Shown: in pieces, positions 1 through 35,069 of the stretch
Layout of the letters: every line of letters begins with the position of its first letter
Position numbering within the stretch: the stretch's first letter is position 1
Assembly (NCBI GenBank): GCA_027487685.1
Contig: JAIYDC010000012.1
Span: 1 to 37,660 of the forward strand
Reading direction: 5' to 3'
Length of the DNA: 37,660 bases
From: Pseudomonadota bacterium
GTDB taxonomy: Bacteria > Bdellovibrionota > Bacteriovoracia > Bacteriovoracales > Bacteriovoracaceae
The notes under the pieces: model-generated
The model's database searches: none
What the model saw: only the letters and a program-made list of their open reading frames with translations
Told to the model about the DNA's origin: nothing
Program-made: the position numbers and the translations under genes

Positions 1-150
1 CCTATCATTGAGTCGCTTAGGGAGCTACTAGACAACGCTGACGACCAACGCCGCAGGATCAAAAACCTCGAATCTGATAGTAATAACCTTCGCACCTTCC
101 TTTGCCAACGAAGCCATGATCCAGAATATTGTGTAAGGGAGCGTCCATGA
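1..150 (+). CDS. C-terminal end of a fibre-like protein with S74-type chaperone tail (partial)
   Basis: The window opens inside a reading frame whose last 49 residues end at the TGA at 148-150. It begins PIIESLRELL, continues as a charged, probably coiled-coil stretch and finishes with two cysteines eight residues apart. The next gene ends the same way: PIVEAVKQL, a charged helix, then Cys-x8-Cys. In S74 (endosialidase-type intramolecular chaperone) proteins this is the helical end of the chaperone domain. I infer that this is a tandem paralogue of the next gene. Its stop codon overlaps that gene's ATG as ATGA, so the two are probably translationally coupled. Most of the protein lies outside the window. 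Confidence 0.7.
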   Translation, partial: PIIESLRELLDNADDQRRRIKNLESDSNNLRTFLCQRSHDPEYCVRERP

Positions 151-1805
151 GAGATGAATGCAAACAAAGAAGACCGGCCGGCAAAGTAATTCTTTCACAA
201 GCTGGTGTCGGTGTCATCGAGGCCATGGTCGCCGCTGGGTTACTCGGGGTAACTGCTATCGGGGTCATAAAGGTCAGTGAGACGATGAACAAAGGCAATG
301 CGAAGGCGCGAACCAACTCAGAGGTCCTACTTGCAACTAATGAGATTACCTCCTTCCTCGCTGACCCAGAAAACTGCCGGGCGACAATCCCCGCAGTCAC
401 AGACTCGATCTCACGTGTGAAGTTCAAAGGGGCGGATCGCTTCCAGACTGGTGAACTCTTAATGGGTACAACAACCAAGGTATCAGGTTACCAGCTCATC
501 TATCCGGCAGGATCGCCAACAAGTGCCGACTTAATCGTTTCTTTCGATAAACGTGCAGTCAACGGTCCGGGGACCAAAACTCGGAAAGTGAACCTCTACG
601 TCGAAGTGAATCCCGATAAGACTGTAAAACATTGCCGGGCCGTGGCGGCCGATAATGATTTTTGGACGCGTGGAAGTGGTGACTGGGCCGACGATATATT
701 TTTTACAGGTCGAGTGGGAATAGGTTCAGAAACTCCTCGTTACCAGCTCGAAGTAAAAAATGAGATGGCTACGGTAAGTTTGGGGGGGAAATACGCTGTA
801 GAGCATGCTTTAACTTTTGACGACACTGGCAAACCACAGGCCGATGGAGGTCATCCGGTCTTTTTTGGTCTTCGCTCGCGTGGAACGATTGAGACCCCGG
901 CTTTTTCAAAGAAGGGCGACATCCTTGCAAGTTTCTTAGGGAGAGATTTTAAGTCCCATTCAGATGCCCAAGGTAAACCAGCACCTGTGAGCGGTGAACC
1001 CGTAGGTGGTGCGTCGATCTACATGATTGCAACTGAGGACACAACGAGCTCTGCCAAGGGAGCGCAAATGATCTTTCAGACAACTAAGAATGGTACTGAC
1101 ACATCACTATGGCGAATGGTGATAAACCATAATGGAAATGTGAATATCCTGAATCCTGAACAGTCACGAGTCCACCTTGTAGGGGGTGGGGATACCGGAA
1201 GTATGTCAGCATTTTCGGGGCTCTACCTCGGAGGTCCACATGAGGATCAAAAAGAAAATTCTTGGTTTATGCTTCATCGTATGAGTGGGGCCTTCCACAT
1301 CGGTAAATGGACTGGTGGTTCATCCACGTCAGTTATCAGTATGACCAAAGGGAAAAGCGTCGGCATTAATACTCTCACTCCCTCCGAGACACTTCATGTA
1401 GGCGGTAACATTCTTAGTTCGGGGATCGTAGCAAGCTCATCAGATGAACGACTTAAGACAGAGATAAAAGGCATCTTCGATCCGCTGCCTCGATTGCTTA
1501 AGATTAGAGGCGTGAACTTTGAATGGAAAGTGCCGCCGTCCGGTGCGGAAGGAACACAACTAGGAGTCCTAGCACAAGAAGTAGAGCAGGCCTTCCCAGA
1601 GGCAGTCCGAACCGGCATCAATGGCCTTAAATCCGTTGCTTATGGGGCCCTTATTGCTCCAATCGTCGAAGCAGTGAAACAACTCGCAAACCGGAGCGAC
1701 AAAGTCGAAGAGCGTCTTCGCCTTGCGGAAGAAGAAAATCGCTATTTAAGAAGACTGGTGTGTGCCACAACCCCTGACGCACCAACGTGTCTTGATCGGG
1801 AGTAA
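147..1805 (+). CDS. Prepilin-like fibre protein with C-terminal S74 self-cleaving chaperone
   Basis: This 552-aa protein is probably a surface fibre or adhesin. I start it at ATG 147, six bases after the ribosome site AAGGGA, rather than at an upstream TTG. Residues 16-40 form a type IV prepilin (class III) signal: Gly20, cleavage before Val21, Glu25 at +5, then a hydrophobic helix. The middle has beta-rich tail-fibre phrases such as VGIGSETP and VGINTLTP. The C-terminus matches the peptidase S74 chaperone, with Ser432-Asp-x-Arg-x-Lys437 (the spacing of the known Ser/Lys cleavage pair) followed by GVLAQEVEQAFPEAV. In phage tail spikes this domain aids trimer folding and cuts itself off. Bdellovibrio uses S74-tipped chimeric fibres to recognise prey. 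The pilin-type start suggests membrane anchoring or export by a pilus-type machine, which is inference. Confidence 0.85.
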   Translation: MRDECKQRRPAGKVILSQAGVGVIEAMVAAGLLGVTAIGVIKVSETMNKGNAKARTNSEVLLATNEITSFLADPENCRATIPAVTDSISRVKFKGADRFQTGELLMGTTTKVSGYQLIYPAGSPTSADLIVSFDKRAVNGPGTKTRKVNLYVEVNPDKTVKHCRAVAADNDFWTRGSGDWADDIFFTGRVGIGSETPRYQLEVKNEMATVSLGGKYAVEHALTFDDTGKPQADGGHPVFFGLRSRGTIETPAFSKKGDILASFLGRDFKSHSDAQGKPAPVSGEPVGGASIYMIATEDTTSSAKGAQMIFQTTKNGTDTSLWRMVINHNGNVNILNPEQSRVHLVGGGDTGSMSAFSGLYLGGPHEDQKENSWFMLHRMSGAFHIGKWTGGSSTSVISMTKGKSVGINTLTPSETLHVGGNILSSGIVASSSDERLKTEIKGIFDPLPRLLKIRGVNFEWKVPPSGAEGTQLGVLAQEVEQAFPEAVRTGINGLKSVAYGALIAPIVEAVKQLANRSDKVEERLRLAEEENRYLRRLVCATTPDAPTCLDRE

Positions 1806-1848: not shown

Positions 1849-2217
1849 TTGAAAAAATCACCTGCGCTTATAATCTCATTCCTCGCAATTATCAGTCTCC
1901 CTACCCAAGCGCTCGTAACCTGCACCCCAACCAGCTGCTCTCCCGCCTGCGACTCAAGCTGCAGCTACCAGGCCTGTGATAAGGTCCAAACCCACGTCTT
2001 CGATGTTAAAAAACTAGAAATCGAAACCGACGATGACCCCTCTAGCGCCTGCGAGCATGACAAAGTCCTCCACCGGCAGGTCCCCTTTAACGTTGATGGG
2101 ACAAGCTATGGGACTATTCCTGCATCGGTTACCCACCGTTACAAGATCTGTGACACCAAAGTGATTTACGGACCACCTTGCCCGCCACCAACTAAGACTC
2201 CTTCAGTTACTCCCTAA
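1849..2217 (+). CDS. Small secreted cysteine-rich protein
   Basis: A 122-aa protein of unrecognised family. The start is TTG 1849, chosen because AGGAGAG lies five bases upstream at 1837-1843. Residues 1-21 form a signal peptide (Lys-Lys, then a hydrophobic run ending near TQA). A cluster of six cysteines follows within about 20 residues (CTPTSCSPACDSSCSYQAC), with more later, suggesting a disulfide-stabilised periplasmic or surface protein. The tail is proline/threonine-rich. It lies 43 bp after the fibre gene on the same strand and may be co-expressed with it. Its stop overlaps the stop of the convergent HAD gene by two bases. Confidence 0.65.
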   Translation: MKKSPALIISFLAIISLPTQALVTCTPTSCSPACDSSCSYQACDKVQTHVFDVKKLEIETDDDPSSACEHDKVLHRQVPFNVDGTSYGTIPASVTHRYKICDTKVIYGPPCPPPTKTPSVTP

Positions 2218-2913: not shown

Positions 2914-3486
2914 CTACTGGAGGATAAAATACCCGTAGACCTGATCTGCTCCGAGAAAGAAACCGTAGTGCCGAGTCCAGTAAAAAGAAGGTCGTGACGG
3001 ATGGCCGGAACGTGCGCCGATCAAAAGTTTATGGGCAAGACCTCTTCCACGCTCTGACGGTGCCACCGCGCAATTAAACAAAAACTTTGCTTCCGAGGTC
3101 TCACCTGAGAGAAGCGAGGCAATGATCCTACCGTCTTCCTCAAGCCAAAGGTGCCGGTGAGGAAGATTGTGGGAAACGAGAAAAGGAACCAGGCGCCGAA
3201 GGAAGGGAATCCCTTCGGGATTCGCTTCCTCATGAAAGCTCCAGAAGGCATCTCTTCTGTTCGTCAAAGGGAGCTCTTCACTCTTAAGATCTGGATCTCC
3301 AGGGCCGGTCAAAGGGGAGAAGCAGCAAAGCCAGCGATCGACGGAATCAGATGAGGTAACAGGTCTAACCTGATTTAGGGTTCCGAACCTCGGTGACATG
3401 AGGAGTTCAGGAAATCCTGGCAAATCAAAATTAAGCCCATCCACACTCCAAGCTCCAAACATCTCCCTCCAGTACGCCTCAATCAC
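2914..3486 (-). CDS. GNAT-like N-acetyltransferase in the isocyanide operon
   Basis: A 190-aa protein whose C-terminal half fits the GNAT acyl-CoA transferase fold: a beta strand with FNCAVAPSERGRGLA, the motif A pyrophosphate-binding loop (R-G-R-G-L-A), then a helix and a final strand FYWTRHYGFF. The N-terminal half (about 90 residues) is not recognised. The start is GTG 3486, with GGAGC in the leader. It overlaps the P450 stop codon as GTGA, so translation is almost certainly coupled. An attractive but unproven role is acylating the oxidised isocyanide product, or self-protection of the producer. Confidence 0.7.
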   Translation of the reverse strand: MIEAYWREMFGAWSVDGLNFDLPGFPELLMSPRFGTLNQVRPVTSSDSVDRWLCCFSPLTGPGDPDLKSEELPLTNRRDAFWSFHEEANPEGIPFLRRLVPFLVSHNLPHRHLWLEEDGRIIASLLSGETSEAKFLFNCAVAPSERGRGLAHKLLIGARSGHPSRPSFYWTRHYGFFLGADQVYGYFILQ

Positions 3487-4742
3487 ACAAGCTCCAGCGG
3501 CAGTACGGCAAAACCCGAAAAAGACAGAGAATAATGATCACGGACGGCCTTGGCCGTGGTGCCAATCCTAAACTCAGGTAGCTCACGCAACAGTTCTTCA
3601 AAGAGGGACTGCATCTCCATCCGGGCAAGCCTCGCTCCGATGCAGTAATGGGCACCGTGCCCGTAAGCAAAGTGCGGCGCCTTACGGCGGATATCAATTT
3701 CCTCTGCTCTCTCCTCCGTCGGTAAATCACGGTTCACGGCATGGGAGGAGATGAAGACAACTTCTCCGGGGAGAATCTCCTGCCCTCCAATCACAGCTCT
3801 TTCTCGTGCCACCCGAAAAATAAAAGTCACTGCCGGATCGAGTCGCTTAAACTCTTCCAGCATCCCTGGAATGAGTTTGGGATCCTGTCGCACATGGGCC
3901 TGGATCTCCGGATGAGAGGCCAGGAGGAACATACAGTTGTTCATCTGATCCGTTGTTGTGGCCATGCCCGCTACCAGCATCATGATGAGCTGAGAGACGA
4001 CCTCGTCATCGCCCAGGCCCGTCTCCGTTTGCATCCGAAGGATCAAGGACACATAATCATCGGCCGGTGACCGCCTTCGATCTTGAACCAGTCCGGTGAA
4101 GTAAACTTTGAGTGACCGCGCAGCTGAATTAACTTCGATCCCATCTTCGTTTCTGTACTGAGACGCCCCTCCGAAGAAGCCGGTCATAACGTTTGACCAG
4201 TGGAGGAAATCCGCCCGGTCTGCCGCTGGAATTGAAAACAAGTCAGCAAGGACAGTCGCCGGCAAACGCTTCGAAACCATCTCGACAAAATCGAAAGACT
4301 CAAGGCCCTTGACCTCTGCCACAAGGTCTCGGATGGCCCCATGCATGACTGACTTAAAACGCTCGAGGACGTGGTCTTCAAAACCCGCTGCGGCCGCACG
4401 CCTACGACGGGCATGGTCCTCATCGTCGCTCATGACCATCATTTTTTTGACGACACCGAAGAAATCCTGGACCAGTGAAAGATCAAGGTTGGGCATTCTT
4501 GAAACAAAGAATGAACCTCGGTCCGCTGAAAAGGCCCGTGAAGTAAGAATCTCCCGGGCATGGGCGGCACGAGTGATGACGTGAAAATTTCCCTTCTCCC
4601 AAAAGTAGATTTCTCCGAAACTTCGGACGTGGTCCACAAACTTCTGAGGAAAATCTTCTGGCGCTGAGGCCTTCTTAAAATCGTGGAAACCGGCGCCGCT
4701 TTTTGTGATACGGCGTGATTGCTCCATTACCTCTTGTGTCAT
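3483..4742 (-). CDS. Cytochrome P450 of the isocyanide operon
   Basis: A 419-aa soluble, bacterial class I-type P450, a haem monooxygenase needing separate ferredoxin and reductase, neither of which is in the window. Visible landmarks are the I-helix LVAGMATTT (about 256-264), the K-helix ExxR (Glu297-Arg300), an R-V-A-R-E beta region, and the haem loop FAYGHGAHYCIG with proximal Cys367. The I-helix threonine (Thr262) is kept, but the usual acidic partner before it is Ala261, so oxygen activation may be atypical. The start has GGAGC six bases upstream. It lies 8 bp after the 2OG oxygenase gene and overlaps the GNAT gene by 4 bp. By context it should oxidise the vinyl isocyanide or related aromatic product. 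Isocyanide synthase plus P450 recalls yeast DIT1/DIT2. Confidence 0.95.
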   Translation of the reverse strand: MTQEVMEQSRRITKSGAGFHDFKKASAPEDFPQKFVDHVRSFGEIYFWEKGNFHVITRAAHAREILTSRAFSADRGSFFVSRMPNLDLSLVQDFFGVVKKMMVMSDDEDHARRRRAAAAGFEDHVLERFKSVMHGAIRDLVAEVKGLESFDFVEMVSKRLPATVLADLFSIPAADRADFLHWSNVMTGFFGGASQYRNEDGIEVNSAARSLKVYFTGLVQDRRRSPADDYVSLILRMQTETGLGDDEVVSQLIMMLVAGMATTTDQMNNCMFLLASHPEIQAHVRQDPKLIPGMLEEFKRLDPAVTFIFRVARERAVIGGQEILPGEVVFISSHAVNRDLPTEERAEEIDIRRKAPHFAYGHGAHYCIGARLARMEMQSLFEELLRELPEFRIGTTAKAVRDHYSLSFSGFAVLPLELV

Positions 4743-4750
4743 AGTAGCTC

Positions 4751-5419
4751 CTATAGTATTTGGATCCGTTTAAAGCTTCTGTGCCGATTATTTCCTAGTG
4801 CCCGCCGACCATGGAGGTACTTAAAGTTATCAATAATCACGAGGTCTCCCGACTCCCAGCAATGCTCCGTGAGGTACTCTTCACGGTAAAGCATCTGGAC
4901 CAGCCCATGAAAGAACTCCTCACAGCCAGGAAACCCGGCAACAGTGAGTTCAACAGGGTTCAGGGCGGTCTCGACTTTTTCCGCTATCCGAAGAATCGGC
5001 CTCTTTGTCACCGGGTGGGACTGGAGGAGCGGCACCTTGATCTCGCCCCCATAGTGAGCAAGTTTCTTTGTGCGGTAAGTGAGCTGTATCTTTTCACAGC
5101 GGGCTCGATCATCAACAGAGAGCGACTCCCAAATCTTCTCCGTGTCCGCGAAGAGCGTCTCTCCTCCTCCCCCTTCGCTTTCTAAGCAGTAGAAAAGGAG
5201 AAAGCGAGGCTCTCGGTAGAAAGCACCATCCCAGTGGAATGGAACCGCCTCGTCAGAGAAGAGATAGTTTGTCGCGGCCGGATCAAACTTCATCGTCATG
5301 ACTGCACCAAAATCCCAGTGAAGGAGCTGCTCACGGATGTCGCCGTTGAACGAACTAAGGCCCCGTGCGAAATCGATGAGCTCGTCGTCACTAAAATTCT
5401 TACACTTCAAAATACGCAT
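4751..5419 (-). CDS. Fe(II)/2-oxoglutarate-dependent oxygenase, PvcB/IsnB-like (TauD family)
   Basis: This 222-aa non-haem iron oxygenase shows the facial triad: His62-x-Asp64 in PFHWDGAF and His203 in YLHGRRAL, with nearby arginines for 2-oxoglutarate. TauD-family phrases FYCLESEGGGGETLFAD and GDLVIIDN also fit. It is somewhat shorter than typical PvcB proteins (about 290 aa). In PvcA/PvcB and IsnA/IsnB systems this enzyme oxidatively decarboxylates the amino-acid isonitrile to a vinyl isonitrile, or desaturates it. Assignment to that role rests on the gene directly upstream: its last 20 bp overlap this gene, with GGAGCG before this ATG, which points to translational coupling. The amino-acid substrate is unknown. 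Confidence 0.9.
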   Translation of the reverse strand: MRILKCKNFSDDELIDFARGLSSFNGDIREQLLHWDFGAVMTMKFDPAATNYLFSDEAVPFHWDGAFYREPRFLLFYCLESEGGGGETLFADTEKIWESLSVDDRARCEKIQLTYRTKKLAHYGGEIKVPLLQSHPVTKRPILRIAEKVETALNPVELTVAGFPGCEEFFHGLVQMLYREEYLTEHCWESGDLVIIDNFKYLHGRRALGNNRHRSFKRIQIL

Positions 5420-6293
5420 ACCGCTCCTTCTCTAGCTTCAGAACGGCATTAAGGGCCAGTGCCTCGCTTTTGTGCATAAGCTCGAAGCGGTCTCGGATCT
5501 TCACCACAACGTTATGCCAAGGAGTGGCCCACTTCGATGAACTCGCCACGAGCTTTATACCAAACTTCTCGTGGGCCGGATCATGAGGATGAATCGAAAG
5601 CCGTAGGGCGCCCATGAAGTGGGTTCCCAGAAGCTCGGACCAGGCCTCTGAGCGCCTCAGAAGCTCATAGGCATTGTCTTTAGACTGCTTCTGCACTTGA
5701 GTGCGCGAACAGTCCGGAGACAAGGTCACTGCATCTTCAAACAAAAAGCGGTGGAGCCCGTTAAAAAGAGTCCTATACCCTGGCTCCGAAACAATCCGCG
5801 CCTTCACTTCGGAAAGTTCTTTTCCGTAAGTCAAAAGGAGGATCTCCCGAAGTTCTTCCGGTGTTTTCCCAGGATAAAGGTCATCCATGGTGAAGACACT
5901 CAAGGCACTGAGTTCGAATTCTTGAATGATTTCTTTAATGCCATCGTTGTAACGGTCAATAACAGGATCGGCCACGTTAACAACATCGCTGAAAGCACGC
6001 CCATCGGAGCAAATCAAGAGCCTAGCTCCGGGAGGATAGACCTCCCCTATCCGATCACAAAGGTTCTGGAGGTTTTTTAGGGCCAATACCTCACCCAAGT
6101 CCGGAAGGGCCCCGGAGGTTTTTTCACCACTCGGACTCTTCGCCGGAAAGGCCGGCAGAATAAAGAGAAGTTCTTCACTGACCGCCACTTTCTCCTCAAT
6201 TCGTCTGAGGAGTGGCACCTCACTGGCCCGAAAGGTTTGTTTCTGCAAACTGTATTCCCGTAGGATTTCTCCAATCATCTCGACGACACCCAT
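5400..6293 (-). CDS. Isocyanide (isonitrile) synthase, PvcA/IsnA/Dit1 family
   Basis: A 297-aa enzyme of the DIT1/PvcA family, which turns an amino-acid amino group (Tyr or Trp in known members) into an isocyanide using ribulose-5-phosphate carbon. Family signatures are LPAFPAKSPSGEKTSGALPD, a following LGEVLALKNL, the loop PGARLLICSDGRAFSDVV, a short LSIHPHD and a C-terminal WATPWHNVV. I start at ATG 6293, just after AGGGGGGA. An extended frame to 6401 runs through the promoter region and is unlikely. This is the first gene of the operon, followed by oxygenase, P450 and GNAT genes. The divergent LysR gene mirrors Pseudomonas, where LysR-type PtxR is encoded near and controls pvc genes. Product identity cannot be deduced. 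Confidence 0.93.
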   Translation of the reverse strand: MGVVEMIGEILREYSLQKQTFRASEVPLLRRIEEKVAVSEELLFILPAFPAKSPSGEKTSGALPDLGEVLALKNLQNLCDRIGEVYPPGARLLICSDGRAFSDVVNVADPVIDRYNDGIKEIIQEFELSALSVFTMDDLYPGKTPEELREILLLTYGKELSEVKARIVSEPGYRTLFNGLHRFLFEDAVTLSPDCSRTQVQKQSKDNAYELLRRSEAWSELLGTHFMGALRLSIHPHDPAHEKFGIKLVASSSKWATPWHNVVVKIRDRFELMHKSEALALNAVLKLEKERYAYFEV

Positions 6294-6315
6294 ATGTCCC
6301 CCCTGTTGTGAGGCA

Positions 6316-6358
6316 GTTATAAGCGCAATTTGAATATTTATGAATTCAATGATATAAA
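6316..6358. promoter_or_regulatory. Divergent promoter and candidate LysR operator
   Basis: Between the isocyanide synthase start (6293) and the LysR start (6385) lies TTGAAT-N8-ATTCAA at 6330-6349, a perfect inverted repeat containing a T-N11-A core as in LysR boxes. Its left arm is also a good -35 for lysR (TTGAAT, 17 bp, TATAAA at 6353-6358). On the other strand, TTCATA (6344-6339) and TATAAC (6321-6316) are 17 bp apart and suit the operon. One regulator could therefore control both directions. These are pattern matches, not measured sites. Confidence 0.5.
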
Positions 6359-6384
6359 TTTTCACCATAGGTAAAGGCAAATGC

Positions 6385-7209
6385 ATGAAAATAACCTTCA
6401 AAGATCTTCAAAACTTCGTAACCTGCGCGGAATCAAAGACCCTCTCCGAGGCAGCCGAGAAGCTCGACATGGCACAGCCCTCTCTCTCCCTTGGAATCAA
6501 AAAGCTCGAAGGAGAGGTCGGAAATGCCCTTTTCCTGAGGAGCAAAGAAGGACTGAAACTCACCCCTCACGGAAAACGTTTACTCCCGGAGGCCCGAGAG
6601 GCCTTGCGTAGTTTAGATCGCCTACGAGGCGGTGCCACCAGCCTCAAGTTCCGCATCGGCTGCCATCCGTCCGTGGGGATGTTCGTTCTGGGATCGTTTC
6701 TACGCCTGATGCACCTCTCCCACCCAGAGATTGACTTCGAGATTGTGAACGGATCCTCCCATGAGGTGAATAAGCTAGTCGCCCAGGGTAGTGTTGATTT
6801 CGGAGTCGTGATGAACCCTGCTTCCTTTCAAGGCCTGATCATCAAATCCATAGGCGAGGATGATGTCTATGTCTGGGAATCTAAGACGCGCTATCAGAAC
6901 AAGCTAATATATAATCCAAACATGCTCCAAGCACTCTCTATTATCTCCCGATGGAAAGCGGCACCCGTCCAGACAGTCGACGTCCAGAACCTCGAGCTCC
7001 TGGCCCATCTTACGGATTCCGGTGCTGGTTTCGGCATCCTTCCCTCCCAGGTGGTTAAGGCCCAGCGCCTTCAGCTTAAGCGAGTGTCGGGGACCCCTTC
7101 ATTTAAGGATCACCTCACTCTCGTCTGCTACCCAGAAATGATCAAATCATTAGAAGGAAAAACAATTTTCGACGCCCTCAAAAAAGTCTTTCATCAACCT
7201 TCACTTTAA
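6385..7209 (+). CDS. LysR-family transcriptional regulator of the isocyanide operon
   Basis: A 274-aa LysR-type regulator. Residues 1-60 form the winged helix-turn-helix (DLQNFVTCAESKTLSEAAE, with QPSLSLGIKKLE as the recognition helix), followed by a linker helix and the inducer-binding domain from about residue 90 (FRIGCHPSVG). It is slightly shorter than the usual 290-300 aa. It is transcribed away from the isocyanide synthase gene across 91 bp, the classic arrangement for a LysR protein controlling its neighbour. The effector is unknown, possibly the product or an intermediate. Its stop lies 9 bp from the end of the convergent DUF481 gene, with no obvious terminator between. Confidence 0.93.
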   Translation: MKITFKDLQNFVTCAESKTLSEAAEKLDMAQPSLSLGIKKLEGEVGNALFLRSKEGLKLTPHGKRLLPEAREALRSLDRLRGGATSLKFRIGCHPSVGMFVLGSFLRLMHLSHPEIDFEIVNGSSHEVNKLVAQGSVDFGVVMNPASFQGLIIKSIGEDDVYVWESKTRYQNKLIYNPNMLQALSIISRWKAAPVQTVDVQNLELLAHLTDSGAGFGILPSQVVKAQRLQLKRVSGTPSFKDHLTLVCYPEMIKSLEGKTIFDALKKVFHQPSL

Positions 7210-32411: not shown

Positions 32412-32424
32412 GAGGAGCTATGAA

Positions 32425-32649
32425 TTATTTCGTCGTAGCTTTCTTAGCAACTTTCTTTGTCACTTTAGCAGCTTTAGGAGCAGCAACTTTTGTTGCTTTG
32501 GCCACCTTAGGCGCGGAAGTGGTGGCTTCTTCATGGATCGCAAACTTAGGAGTAGTACCTTTATTGCGGTTTGCTGCCTTTCTCTTGGCACCCATAGCTC
32601 TGTGCTTAGCTTTACGACGGTTTTCGGTTACTGCGGTTCTAGAAGCCAT
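32425..32649 (-). CDS. Histone H1-like Lys/Ala-rich DNA-binding protein
   Basis: A 74-aa very basic protein. The N-terminal half (ASRTAVTENRRKAKHRAMGA, KRKAANRNKGTTPKF) is polar and Arg/Lys-rich. The C-terminal half is a Lys/Ala/Val repeat (VAKATKVAAPKAAKVTKKVA) like the tail of histone H1 and bacterial H1-like nucleoid proteins. ATG 32649 has an excellent ribosome site (GAGGAGA), which argues that this is the real gene here rather than the antisense frame. It is the only minus-strand gene in the Tad-like locus and sits between two plus-strand genes. A nucleoid-compaction role is plausible but unproven. Confidence 0.75.
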   Translation of the reverse strand: MASRTAVTENRRKAKHRAMGAKRKAANRNKGTTPKFAIHEEATTSAPKVAKATKVAAPKAAKVTKKVAKKATTK

Positions 32650-32686
32650 AGGTATCTCCTCAAAGAAAAATCATAAGTTATCAAAA

Positions 32687-33967
32687 ATGAAGCTCCTCAA
32701 TTTAACGGTAACCCTTTTATTTGTCAAAACCTTCCTTCTGTTGCCCGTCGCAGCAGACGCCTCCCTTTTGCAGAGTGACATAATCCTGGCCAAAGGAGAG
32801 CAAAAAGAAATTAGCCCAGGAGGCTTAACAAACTTCTCCGTCGGGAACCCAGAGGTGATTTCCTACAGGTACATTCCAAAAGAGCAAAAGCTACTGGTAA
32901 AAGGTAAGAAAGTAGGATTCACAGACCTAGTTATTTGGAATGGCAAAGGTAAACAGGTCTATAGCATCTACGTCCTTTCAAAGCAGAAGTTCCTCAAGAC
33001 CTTCCAGCTTGCCGATGCCTTGAAAAATTTAAACCTTTCTATCGACATTAAAGGACCCGTGATGACCGCCTCGGGAACACTCGGGGATTTCGCTGATTAT
33101 CTCTACCTCCAGAAGATCAGAGCGCAGTTCCAGGAGCAAGTATTCTTTAAAATCAGGATTTCGCGGGAGCTCCGGAACCATATCATAGGCCAGCTCTATC
33201 ATAAGCTTTACTCTAATGGCTTTTCCAGCGTCGCCTGCCAGGTCGACTGGCTCGATATTACCTGTTTCTACGAAGGCCAGAAAAATGAACATCTCTTAAA
33301 GCAGCTTGCTAGCTTTTACAAAGTTGCTTTCATAGCTCAGGACTCTCGCCAACAGCGGAAGAACTACCGAATCAAGCTTAAGATCATACAACTCGAACAA
33401 ATGGAGGGACGTGAAATTCATCTCGGCTTGGACAAGTTATCGGGAAAAATATCTGATCTCTTTGAGTTTGGGTTGAGGAAGCTTGTTGATGACAACGCCG
33501 TACTTTTGGCGAGGTCAAAACTTGATCTTTCGACATTAGCCGAGCCAGAACTTGTCGCAAATCTTAATGCAAATCAGCTTGTGGAGATTGGCTCCCAGAT
33601 CCCCTATCAAAATGTCTCCGTTCAGGGGGCGACAGTCATCGCCCCAATCGACTGGCGCTTTGCAGGGCTTAAAATCAAGACTAAGCTTACCGAATCGTAC
33701 GGGAAGCTCCTGCTCGACTACGAAACGGAGTTCTCCAGACCCGTCGACCAAGCGATCAGCGGAAGCAAAGAAGTCTCATCCGCATTCCTTGAGGTCGGTG
33801 TGCCTTTGAAAATTTTCCAGATTGGATTTCAAACGACCAGCCGAGATCGGCGAGGCATCCCTCTCATATCTGAGATTCCCGTTCTTCGACACCTGTTTGA
33901 ATCGAAGTCAGACCAGAAAACTTACAAACACATCTATGGGTACGCTGTACTCGAAGAGGCGGAATAA
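32687..33967 (+). CDS. Pilus secretin, CpaC/RcpA type
   Basis: A 426-aa outer-membrane secretin. ATG 32687 starts a signal peptide (MKLLNLTVTLLFVKTFLLLP, cleaved near ADA). The N-terminal part has the CpaC/RcpA-type domain (ILAKGEQKEISPGGLTNFSV, KVGFTDLVIWNGKGKQ), then KIRISRELRN and the secretin domain: LSTLAEPELVANLNANQLVE, IGSQIPYQNVSVQG, GLKIKTKLTESYGKLLLDYE and RRGIPLISEIPVLRHLF, the classic G-x-P-x-L-x-x-I-P-x-L-x-x-L-F ending. This ATG has no ribosome site. An in-frame ATG at 32420 preceded by AGGAGG would add 89 residues antisense to the H1-like gene. Confidence 0.88.
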   Translation: MKLLNLTVTLLFVKTFLLLPVAADASLLQSDIILAKGEQKEISPGGLTNFSVGNPEVISYRYIPKEQKLLVKGKKVGFTDLVIWNGKGKQVYSIYVLSKQKFLKTFQLADALKNLNLSIDIKGPVMTASGTLGDFADYLYLQKIRAQFQEQVFFKIRISRELRNHIIGQLYHKLYSNGFSSVACQVDWLDITCFYEGQKNEHLLKQLASFYKVAFIAQDSRQQRKNYRIKLKIIQLEQMEGREIHLGLDKLSGKISDLFEFGLRKLVDDNAVLLARSKLDLSTLAEPELVANLNANQLVEIGSQIPYQNVSVQGATVIAPIDWRFAGLKIKTKLTESYGKLLLDYETEFSRPVDQAISGSKEVSSAFLEVGVPLKIFQIGFQTTSRDRRGIPLISEIPVLRHLFESKSDQKTYKHIYGYAVLEEAE

Positions 33968-33968
33968 A

Positions 33969-35069
33969 ATGTTAAGTTTATTTGCGAGCGAAGTCGCACC
34001 GCTATCTTCATCTGAAGCGCGGAACCGTTCCCGTGAAATTCTCGTCTCGGCCCTCAACAAGGGAATCATTCCTACTTGGGAGTCTCATATGATTGAACTT
34101 CCGGTGATGGGTCCAGAGGACCTGAGCGCGGTTGAAGAAAGCTTTAAGAAGCTTACAACCTGGACCTTCCTCCCTGGAGTATTGGATGTGGATGCAACAG
34201 AGTTTCTCTTCCACGCACCAGATCTCATTCAAATAATCCGTAATAATGGGCAGAGGGAGGTCAGATCCGTGCCTCTCTGCGATGAAGAATGGCAGCTCTG
34301 GCTCGAGATTGTCTCACTCGCCTTTCACCAGAACTGGAACTTAAGACATCCGTTTTCTAGCTTCTACGGCAAACTCTTTGGTGTCTCCTATCGGCTAAGT
34401 CTCATCCATGGTTCGACGTCTCCAGAGGGACGCTCAAAGCTAGTTCTACGGAAGTTGGCAGAGACTCCATACCAATTATCCGACTTCGGGAAGGCCGAGC
34501 TGCTCGAAGAACTAGTTAAACAAAAGAAAAATATTCTTATCGCCGGCGCAACAGGCTCAGGGAAGACTTCTCTCCTAGCGAGTTTGACCCATTTTTTCAG
34601 GCCAACTGAGCATGTAGTGGTTCTGGAAGATACCTTCGAAATTTTCTCACACCACCGCTTCCTCACTCGTTTCCTGGCCGGATCAACTCCCGAGACGGAG
34701 CTGAAGGCATATCTGGCCTACAGCCTCCGTATGAGCCCAGATCGCATTCTTTTAGGGGAAATGCGCTCTCATGAAGTCATTCCATTTATGCTCGCTATGA
34801 ATACCGGGCATCGTGGTCTCATGGGAACGATTCACGCCGCGAGTGCACCCGATGCCATCAATCGCGTGGCACTTCTCTTTTCTCTCTATGCAGGTGATGG
34901 TGGGTTGAATTTCGACCGGGTCACTGAGCTCGTGTGTCGAAACCTGGAGTATGTAGTCTTTTTGGAGCAGCGAAGGGTCAAGGAAGTCATCCGGATCCTT
35001 GGGTCGGATCGGGGTATACCTTTTTTTGAAACCATCATTTCCGGGCCCCTTGAGGAGGCAACCAGTTGA
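33969..35069 (+). CDS. Type IV pilus/T2SS-type ATPase, TadA/CpaF family
   Basis: A 366-aa cytoplasmic hexameric ATPase driving pilus assembly or secretion. The N-terminal domain is followed by Walker A GATGSGKT (193-200), the Asp box VVLEDTFEI, an arginine-rich loop, Walker B-like PDRILLGEMRSHEV, and the His box GHRGLMGTIHAASAPDAINR. It starts one base after the secretin stop. TadA normally needs TadB/TadC platform proteins, which are not in this stretch. Length is a little under the usual CpaF (about 450 aa), with a reduced N-terminus. Confidence 0.93.
   Translation: MLSLFASEVAPLSSSEARNRSREILVSALNKGIIPTWESHMIELPVMGPEDLSAVEESFKKLTTWTFLPGVLDVDATEFLFHAPDLIQIIRNNGQREVRSVPLCDEEWQLWLEIVSLAFHQNWNLRHPFSSFYGKLFGVSYRLSLIHGSTSPEGRSKLVLRKLAETPYQLSDFGKAELLEELVKQKKNILIAGATGSGKTSLLASLTHFFRPTEHVVVLEDTFEIFSHHRFLTRFLAGSTPETELKAYLAYSLRMSPDRILLGEMRSHEVIPFMLAMNTGHRGLMGTIHAASAPDAINRVALLFSLYAGDGGLNFDRVTELVCRNLEYVVFLEQRRVKEVIRILGSDRGIPFFETIISGPLEEATS

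Follow-up and report, generated by a model that had tools for sequence, protein, structure and literature searches.

A prepilin signal, a MAT-like fibre body and an S74 domain in a single protein: a probable modular minor type IV pilin in Bacteriovoracaceae

An open reading frame at the left end of the DNA analysed here (the window, a stretch of 37,660 nucleotides that forms contig C96 of a 3.79-Mb Bacteriovoracaceae genome) begins like a type IV prepilin and carries an S74 domain near its end. This raises the question of what kind of structure such a protein could build, and of whether the two parts belong together at all. Bacteriovoracaceae are relatives of the predatory Bdellovibrio, which implies nothing about the lifestyle of the source organism itself. 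The features of the locus are collected in Table 1.

Table 1. Features of the prepilin-S74 locus and its surroundings in the window
Feature	Position	Strand	Basis or remark
3′ end of the preceding prepilin-S74 gene of the tandem, encoding a coiled coil and a Cys pair at the C-terminus	1..150	+	putative join with contig C20
Prepilin-S74 fibre protein gene (ATG at 147, stop codon ending at 1805)	147..1805	+	ORF listing and Pfam; 552 aa
Prepilin leader, residues 1-20, last residue Gly20	147..206	+	Gly20 invariant in 26 relatives
Predicted α1 spine helix, residues 21-71, Glu25 at +5	207..359	+	AlphaFold2 helix 24-71; weak pilin profile matches
Pilin globular module, residues 72-165, predicted four-stranded sheet	360..641	+	invariant Cys pair; AlphaFold2
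Cys77 codon; Cys163 codon	375-377; 633-635	+	invariant in pilin module
MAT-like trimeric fibre body, residues 166-425	642..1421	+	165-359 matches 8OML; also present in 12 S74 proteins of the family that lack a prepilin start
S74 intramolecular chaperone/protease; predicted self-cleavage before Ser432	1440..1610	+	PF13884
Ser432 codon; Lys437 codon	1440-1442; 1455-1457	+	invariant
C-terminal coiled coil and Cys539/Cys548 tail, presumably released together with the excised chaperone	1611..1802	+	
Small Cys-rich protein, 122 aa, Sec-type signal peptide	1849..2217	+	ORF listing
GNAT	2914-3486	-	isonitrile-type cluster
Cytochrome P450	3483-4742	-	isonitrile-type cluster
TauD oxygenase	4751-5419	-	isonitrile-type cluster
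DIT1/PvcA synthase	5400-6401	-	isonitrile-type cluster
LysR regulator, divergent	6385-7209	+	isonitrile-type cluster

Prepilin signal and its recurrence

The N-terminus of the protein reads MRDECKQRRPAGKVILSQAG|VGVIEAMVAAGLLGVTAIGV, with a Glu at +5 of the predicted cleavage site. On its own it falls below the Pfam cut-off for N_methyl, and in NCBIfam it gives a weak match to the minor pilin ComGE (E 0.043). A single sequence below library cut-offs is suggestive only, and the signal was therefore tested with relatives. The S74 loci of relatives yielded 61 S74 ORFs, 26 of them with a prepilin N-terminus. The rest comprised MAT-like proteins bearing Sec or lipoprotein signals, proteins of other kinds, and ORFs truncated by the end of a contig. 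When the 26 prepilin-S74 proteins are aligned, position -1 is Gly in every one, and at +5 there are 22 Glu, 3 Gln and 1 Ala. N_methyl (PF07963) is matched at E ≤ 0.05 by 12 of the 26, the TIGR02532 and N_methyl models are matched by sister proteins, and a paralogue in the same genome (contig C105) scores above the curated thresholds for PF07963 as well as PF13884. On the strength of the N_methyl matches and of this paralogue the signal is accepted, and the class III prepilin signal first noticed in the DNA alone (Gly20|Val21, Glu25 and a hydrophobic helix) is confirmed by the relatives. The protein thus has the N-terminus of a modular type IV pilin, namely Gly at -1, a hydrophobic tract and, usually, Glu at +5. 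A chance signal is rejected, since only 11 of 200,000 shuffles of the N-terminus passed a strict signal filter and the fibre ORF is the sole one to pass it among 96 in the window and contig C20; a count of 48 in 489 from the same analysis is biased, the loci having been fetched for prepilin matches.

An earlier note on this DNA had taken the assembly for an unusual one. That view does not hold: a search for a prepilin N-terminus together with PF13884, which the note had proposed as a check, finds the same architecture in 26 proteins from 12 of 36 Bacteriovoracaceae genomes, all of them matching PF13884, and the pairing was already listed in 2021. The architecture also extends to four or more further families in the phylum (e.g. 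G054, G113, G121, G123, G128), so the join did not arise by chance. S74 proteins are present in 71 of the 144 genomes sampled from the phylum, and the source genome has seven S74 ORFs, five of which start with a prepilin signal. The 26-row alignment has a mean column identity of 20%, and its invariant columns are Met1, Gly20, Cys77, Cys163, Ser432, Asp433, Lys437, Gly473, Ala476 and Gln477. By their place in the sequence these are residues of the predicted prepilin cleavage, of a likely disulfide in the pilin head, and of the S74 catalytic site and core.

Pilin module, fibre body and S74 domain

Modelling of residues 1-185 with AlphaFold2 from three sequences gave, at a mean pLDDT of 58, four strands at 110-172 preceded by a helix at 24-71 whose part before residue 49 is of low confidence. 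A long helix followed by four strands is the order of elements in a pilin, here at modest confidence. A profile search with the N-terminal module matched pilins alone, weakly (E 0.008-0.9); a Foldseek search with the module's model returned no significant neighbour and no pilin among the 50 matches listed. The pilin fold is therefore supported by sequence and by element order, short of proof, and Cys77 and Cys163 are likely to form the disulfide of the pilin head.

The fibre body has a different kinship. Residues 165-359 match the Bdellovibrio MAT fibre tip Bd1334 (crystal structure 8OML, E 2.7e-8), the body also matches 8ON4 (E 6.4e-7), and 8OND appears in the profile search. The only Pfam domain in the protein is PF13884, Peptidase_S74 (residues 432-488, E 3.2e-14, above cut-off), and the S74 region further matches MyRF 7DC3 (2.9e-7) and the phage long tail fibre 6F45. 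At the start of the domain stands the SDxxxK catalytic motif of S74 (SDERLK), in which Ser432, Asp433 and Lys437 were placed by translation and alignment; their invariance in all 26 proteins upholds the earlier assignment of Ser432/Lys437 as the cleavage dyad. S74 self-cleavage in Bd3182 and trimeric fibres have been shown for the Bdellovibrio MATs (PMC10769870), in a paper that does not speak of pilins. Both PF13884 and the MAT-like body are extra domains not specific to type IV pili, as is usual for a modular pilin. The Cys539/Cys548 motif of the tail is common to the MAT-type S74 proteins of the family. A low-confidence AlphaFold2 model of the full-length monomer, too poor for use (pLDDT 36), has a helix at 492-541. 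Such a poor model is expected of an obligate trimer, and a shallow alignment alone could also explain it. MATs and phage fibres are trimers.

The modules differ markedly in how widely they are shared. In counts that include the window protein itself, residues 1-165 match 22 S74 proteins, every one of them prepilin-S74, residues 166-425 match 6 prepilin-S74 and 12 other S74 proteins, and residues 426-552 match 25 and 35, respectively. In three paralogue pairs elsewhere the pilin module is kept while the fibre diverges (identity of pilin versus fibre 95 vs 63%, 88 vs 59% and 61 vs 26%), which fits a constant anchor with variable tips; in the window's own tandem the fibre shows no faster divergence (55/52/53%). 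Five prepilin-S74 proteins of 363-376 aa (L094, L104, L111, L112, L086) have almost no fibre between pilin and S74. Relatives also encode prepilin-type proteins of 290-800 aa without an S74 match (L140, L142, L143, L145, L146), of which L143 has a pilin module resembling that of the window protein (36% identity); from their sequences these may carry other tips on the same anchor.

Phage and plasmid proteins match only the fibre/S74 part, from residue 184 onward among the matches listed, and a viral scan gave two weak matches, both to the S74 region. That the entire protein came from a phage or plasmid is rejected, as no match listed covers 80% of it and all start at or after residue 184.

Tandem genes and pilus machinery

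The fibre gene is not alone, a point that the earlier note had missed. An ATGA overlap at 147-150 places the stop codon of an upstream gene on its start codon, and contig C20 ends in the same 20 bases with which the window begins. If the two contigs are joined on this overlap, as we infer, the joined frame encodes a 546-aa prepilin-S74 protein ending at window position 150. Together with the member before it (L008:14802-16448), the tandem comprises three prepilin-S74 genes with 4-base ATGA overlaps, the window gene being the third. The other two chains are 45-52% identical to the window protein, and the three carry Gln, Ala and Glu at +5. The relative G015 likewise has three such genes in tandem, overlapping in the same way, and many prepilin-S74 genes stand alone. 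The gene at 1849-2217, whose product has no family match in Pfam or NCBIfam, is possibly the last of the operon, with a putative link to the fibre.

The genome encodes one PilD with an N-methyltransferase-type domain (contig C126), an ATPase-ATPase-PilC-like-PilA cluster (contig C120), T2SS pseudopilins (C24), as well as further minor pilins and several other secretion ATPases. None of this machinery adjoins the S74 genes. For PilY1 the genome gave no match, in a search that likewise picked up none of its controls. Elsewhere in the genome, a minor-pilin operon (L134:517-5014) opens with a gene for a 980-aa protein that has a pilin-like start and no Pfam match. Near the window end, at 32420-35069, lies a Tad-type pilus locus with a secretin carrying a pilus-formation N-terminal domain and a TadA-like ATPase, and 2914-7209 holds an isonitrile-type biosynthesis cluster.

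Proposed assembly, alternatives and known systems

We propose that the window protein is probably a trimeric modular minor type IV pilin with a MAT-type adhesive tip, in which S74 would serve as a trimerising, self-excising chaperone. The precursor would be inserted in the inner membrane, where the prepilin peptidase PilD would cut after Gly20. Three chains would then trimerise in the periplasm with the S74 domain as template, after which S74 would cut before Ser432 and depart, taking its coiled coil along. Residues 21-431 would remain as the mature trimer and cap or prime a type IV pilus, and pilus extension would present the fibre tip to a candidate target such as prey, host or glycan. The position at the tip is suggested because filaments assemble from the tip and because three bundled α1 helices would fit best there. 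The trimer, both cleavages, the tip position and the ligand are inferred from homologues (MATs, S74 spikes and CofB/TcpB). The earlier picture of a prepilin-processed fibre that cuts itself is well supported by the conservation of just these sites, and both cleavages remain predictions. In favour of the pilus-tip reading stand the invariant residues, the distribution of the modules, the matches to MAT, phage-fibre and MyRF structures, the modelled order of elements, the three paralogue pairs, and the PilD and pilus cluster of the genome. Against it count the Foldseek search without a pilin, the poor full-length model, the position of the genes away from the pilus machinery, the lack of Glu at +5 in two of the three tandem members, and the tandem's fibres diverging no faster than its pilin modules.

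The machine that such a prepilin serves could be another one. It might be processed and then used in a T2SS pseudopilus, in a Tad pilus or as an inner-membrane fibre, and the T2SS pseudopilins, the additional secretion ATPases, the Tad-type locus in the same window and the location of the S74 genes outside the pilB-pilT-pilA cluster would all agree with this. However, the form of the signal, G-xxxx-E-hydrophobic, is that of type IVa prepilins, and modular pilins often occur as orphans, which makes the position of the genes weak evidence; we consider another machine unlikely. It is less likely still that the three coupled genes each give one chain to a single hetero-trimeric fibre instead of forming three homotrimers. 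The 4-base overlaps here and in G015 do suggest matched synthesis, the differing +5 residues look as if the chains held different places, and the minor pilins KilLMN and GspIJK form heterotrimers (PMC12075869, PMC8179133), but S74 fibres and MATs as known so far are homotrimers, many of the prepilin-S74 genes occur singly, and the chains resemble the window protein only to the extent given above.

Two further readings touch the ends of the chain. A simple transmembrane anchor or Sec signal at the N-terminus, never cut by prepilin peptidase, would suit the scores below the Pfam and NCBIfam cut-offs and the long leader (20 aa, against 7-16 in the others), yet the Gly at -1 throughout, the predominance of Glu at +5 and the matches of sister proteins to pilin signal models make this very improbable. 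A role of S74 as a pilus-borne peptidase effector that cuts other proteins would follow the predicted-peptidase wording of the 2021 survey (PMC8179133), but we give it hardly any credence, because the S74 domains of phage spikes and of Bd3182 excise themselves from their own chain (PMC10769870) and S74 here is C-terminal, directly after the MAT fibre.

The reading as a self-trimming minor pilin places the protein among several known systems. PilV tip adhesins of conjugative type IV pili are likewise minor pilins with a variable adhesive end; none is known to carry S74, and Pfam gave no match between the PilV (shufflon) family and the window protein. Neither CofB, TcpB nor PilV matched it in sequence at the thresholds used (Pfam, structure-sequence and profile searches). 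The trimeric minor pilins CofB and TcpB sit at pilus tips (PMC8179133, PMC9565799) and resemble it in being large, with a β-rich C-terminal trimer at the tip, but have other C-terminal folds and neither an S74 domain nor self-excision that is known. In the predator Myxococcus xanthus, the KilLMN tips of Tad pili are also built of interchangeable modular minor pilins, but form a Tad-type heterotrimer of other domains without S74 (PMC12075869). The MAT fibres of Bdellovibrio bacteriovorus (PMC10769870) have a homologous fibre-tip module and an S74 domain, and the genomes with prepilin-S74 proteins also hold S74 fibres with Sec or lipoprotein signals. MATs carry a Sec signal and a conserved β domain of about 130 aa at the N-terminus, whereas the window protein has a pilin module there, and in comparisons its N-terminus matched prepilins only and none of the MAT proteins examined. 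Since the MAT N-terminal domain is absent, membership of the MATs is rejected, and the link to Bdellovibrio fibres seen earlier stands for the body and not for the protein as a whole.

The protein belongs instead to the modular type IV pilins with a prepilin signal and S74 on one chain. An InterPro survey in the 2021 S. sanguinis PilB paper lists this combination (IPR012902+IPR030392) among the 15 commonest modular-pilin architectures and takes S74 as a peptidase, without anatomy or mechanism (PMC8179133). The present analysis adds the MAT-like body, the Cys pair, the tandem operon and the chaperone reading. A search of the literature for a prepilin with S74 and for a minor pilin with an intramolecular chaperone found no account of either, the modular-pilin literature being the prior art; the pairing is thus already known, and the MAT-tip-on-pilin anatomy and the chaperone mechanism are undescribed as far as this search reached.

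An unexplained architecture would thereby gain a mechanism, chaperone-driven trimerisation with self-excision, in place of a peptidase effector. The presumed role of MAT fibres in Bdellovibrio is recognition of prey surfaces, and the authors who described them bring up a possible connection with type IV pili (PMC10769870). It is quite a speculative extension, and an improbable one, that a hetero-trimeric self-trimming tip sits on a retractable type IV pilus and that swapping of MAT tips between fixed surface fibres and pilins retools specificity. More simply, adhesive fibre tips have probably been put on retractable pili by pilin-fibre fusion, and with MAT tip and pilin in one chain, it becomes possible to test directly whether a retractable pilus pulls on prey or surfaces through a phage-type tip.
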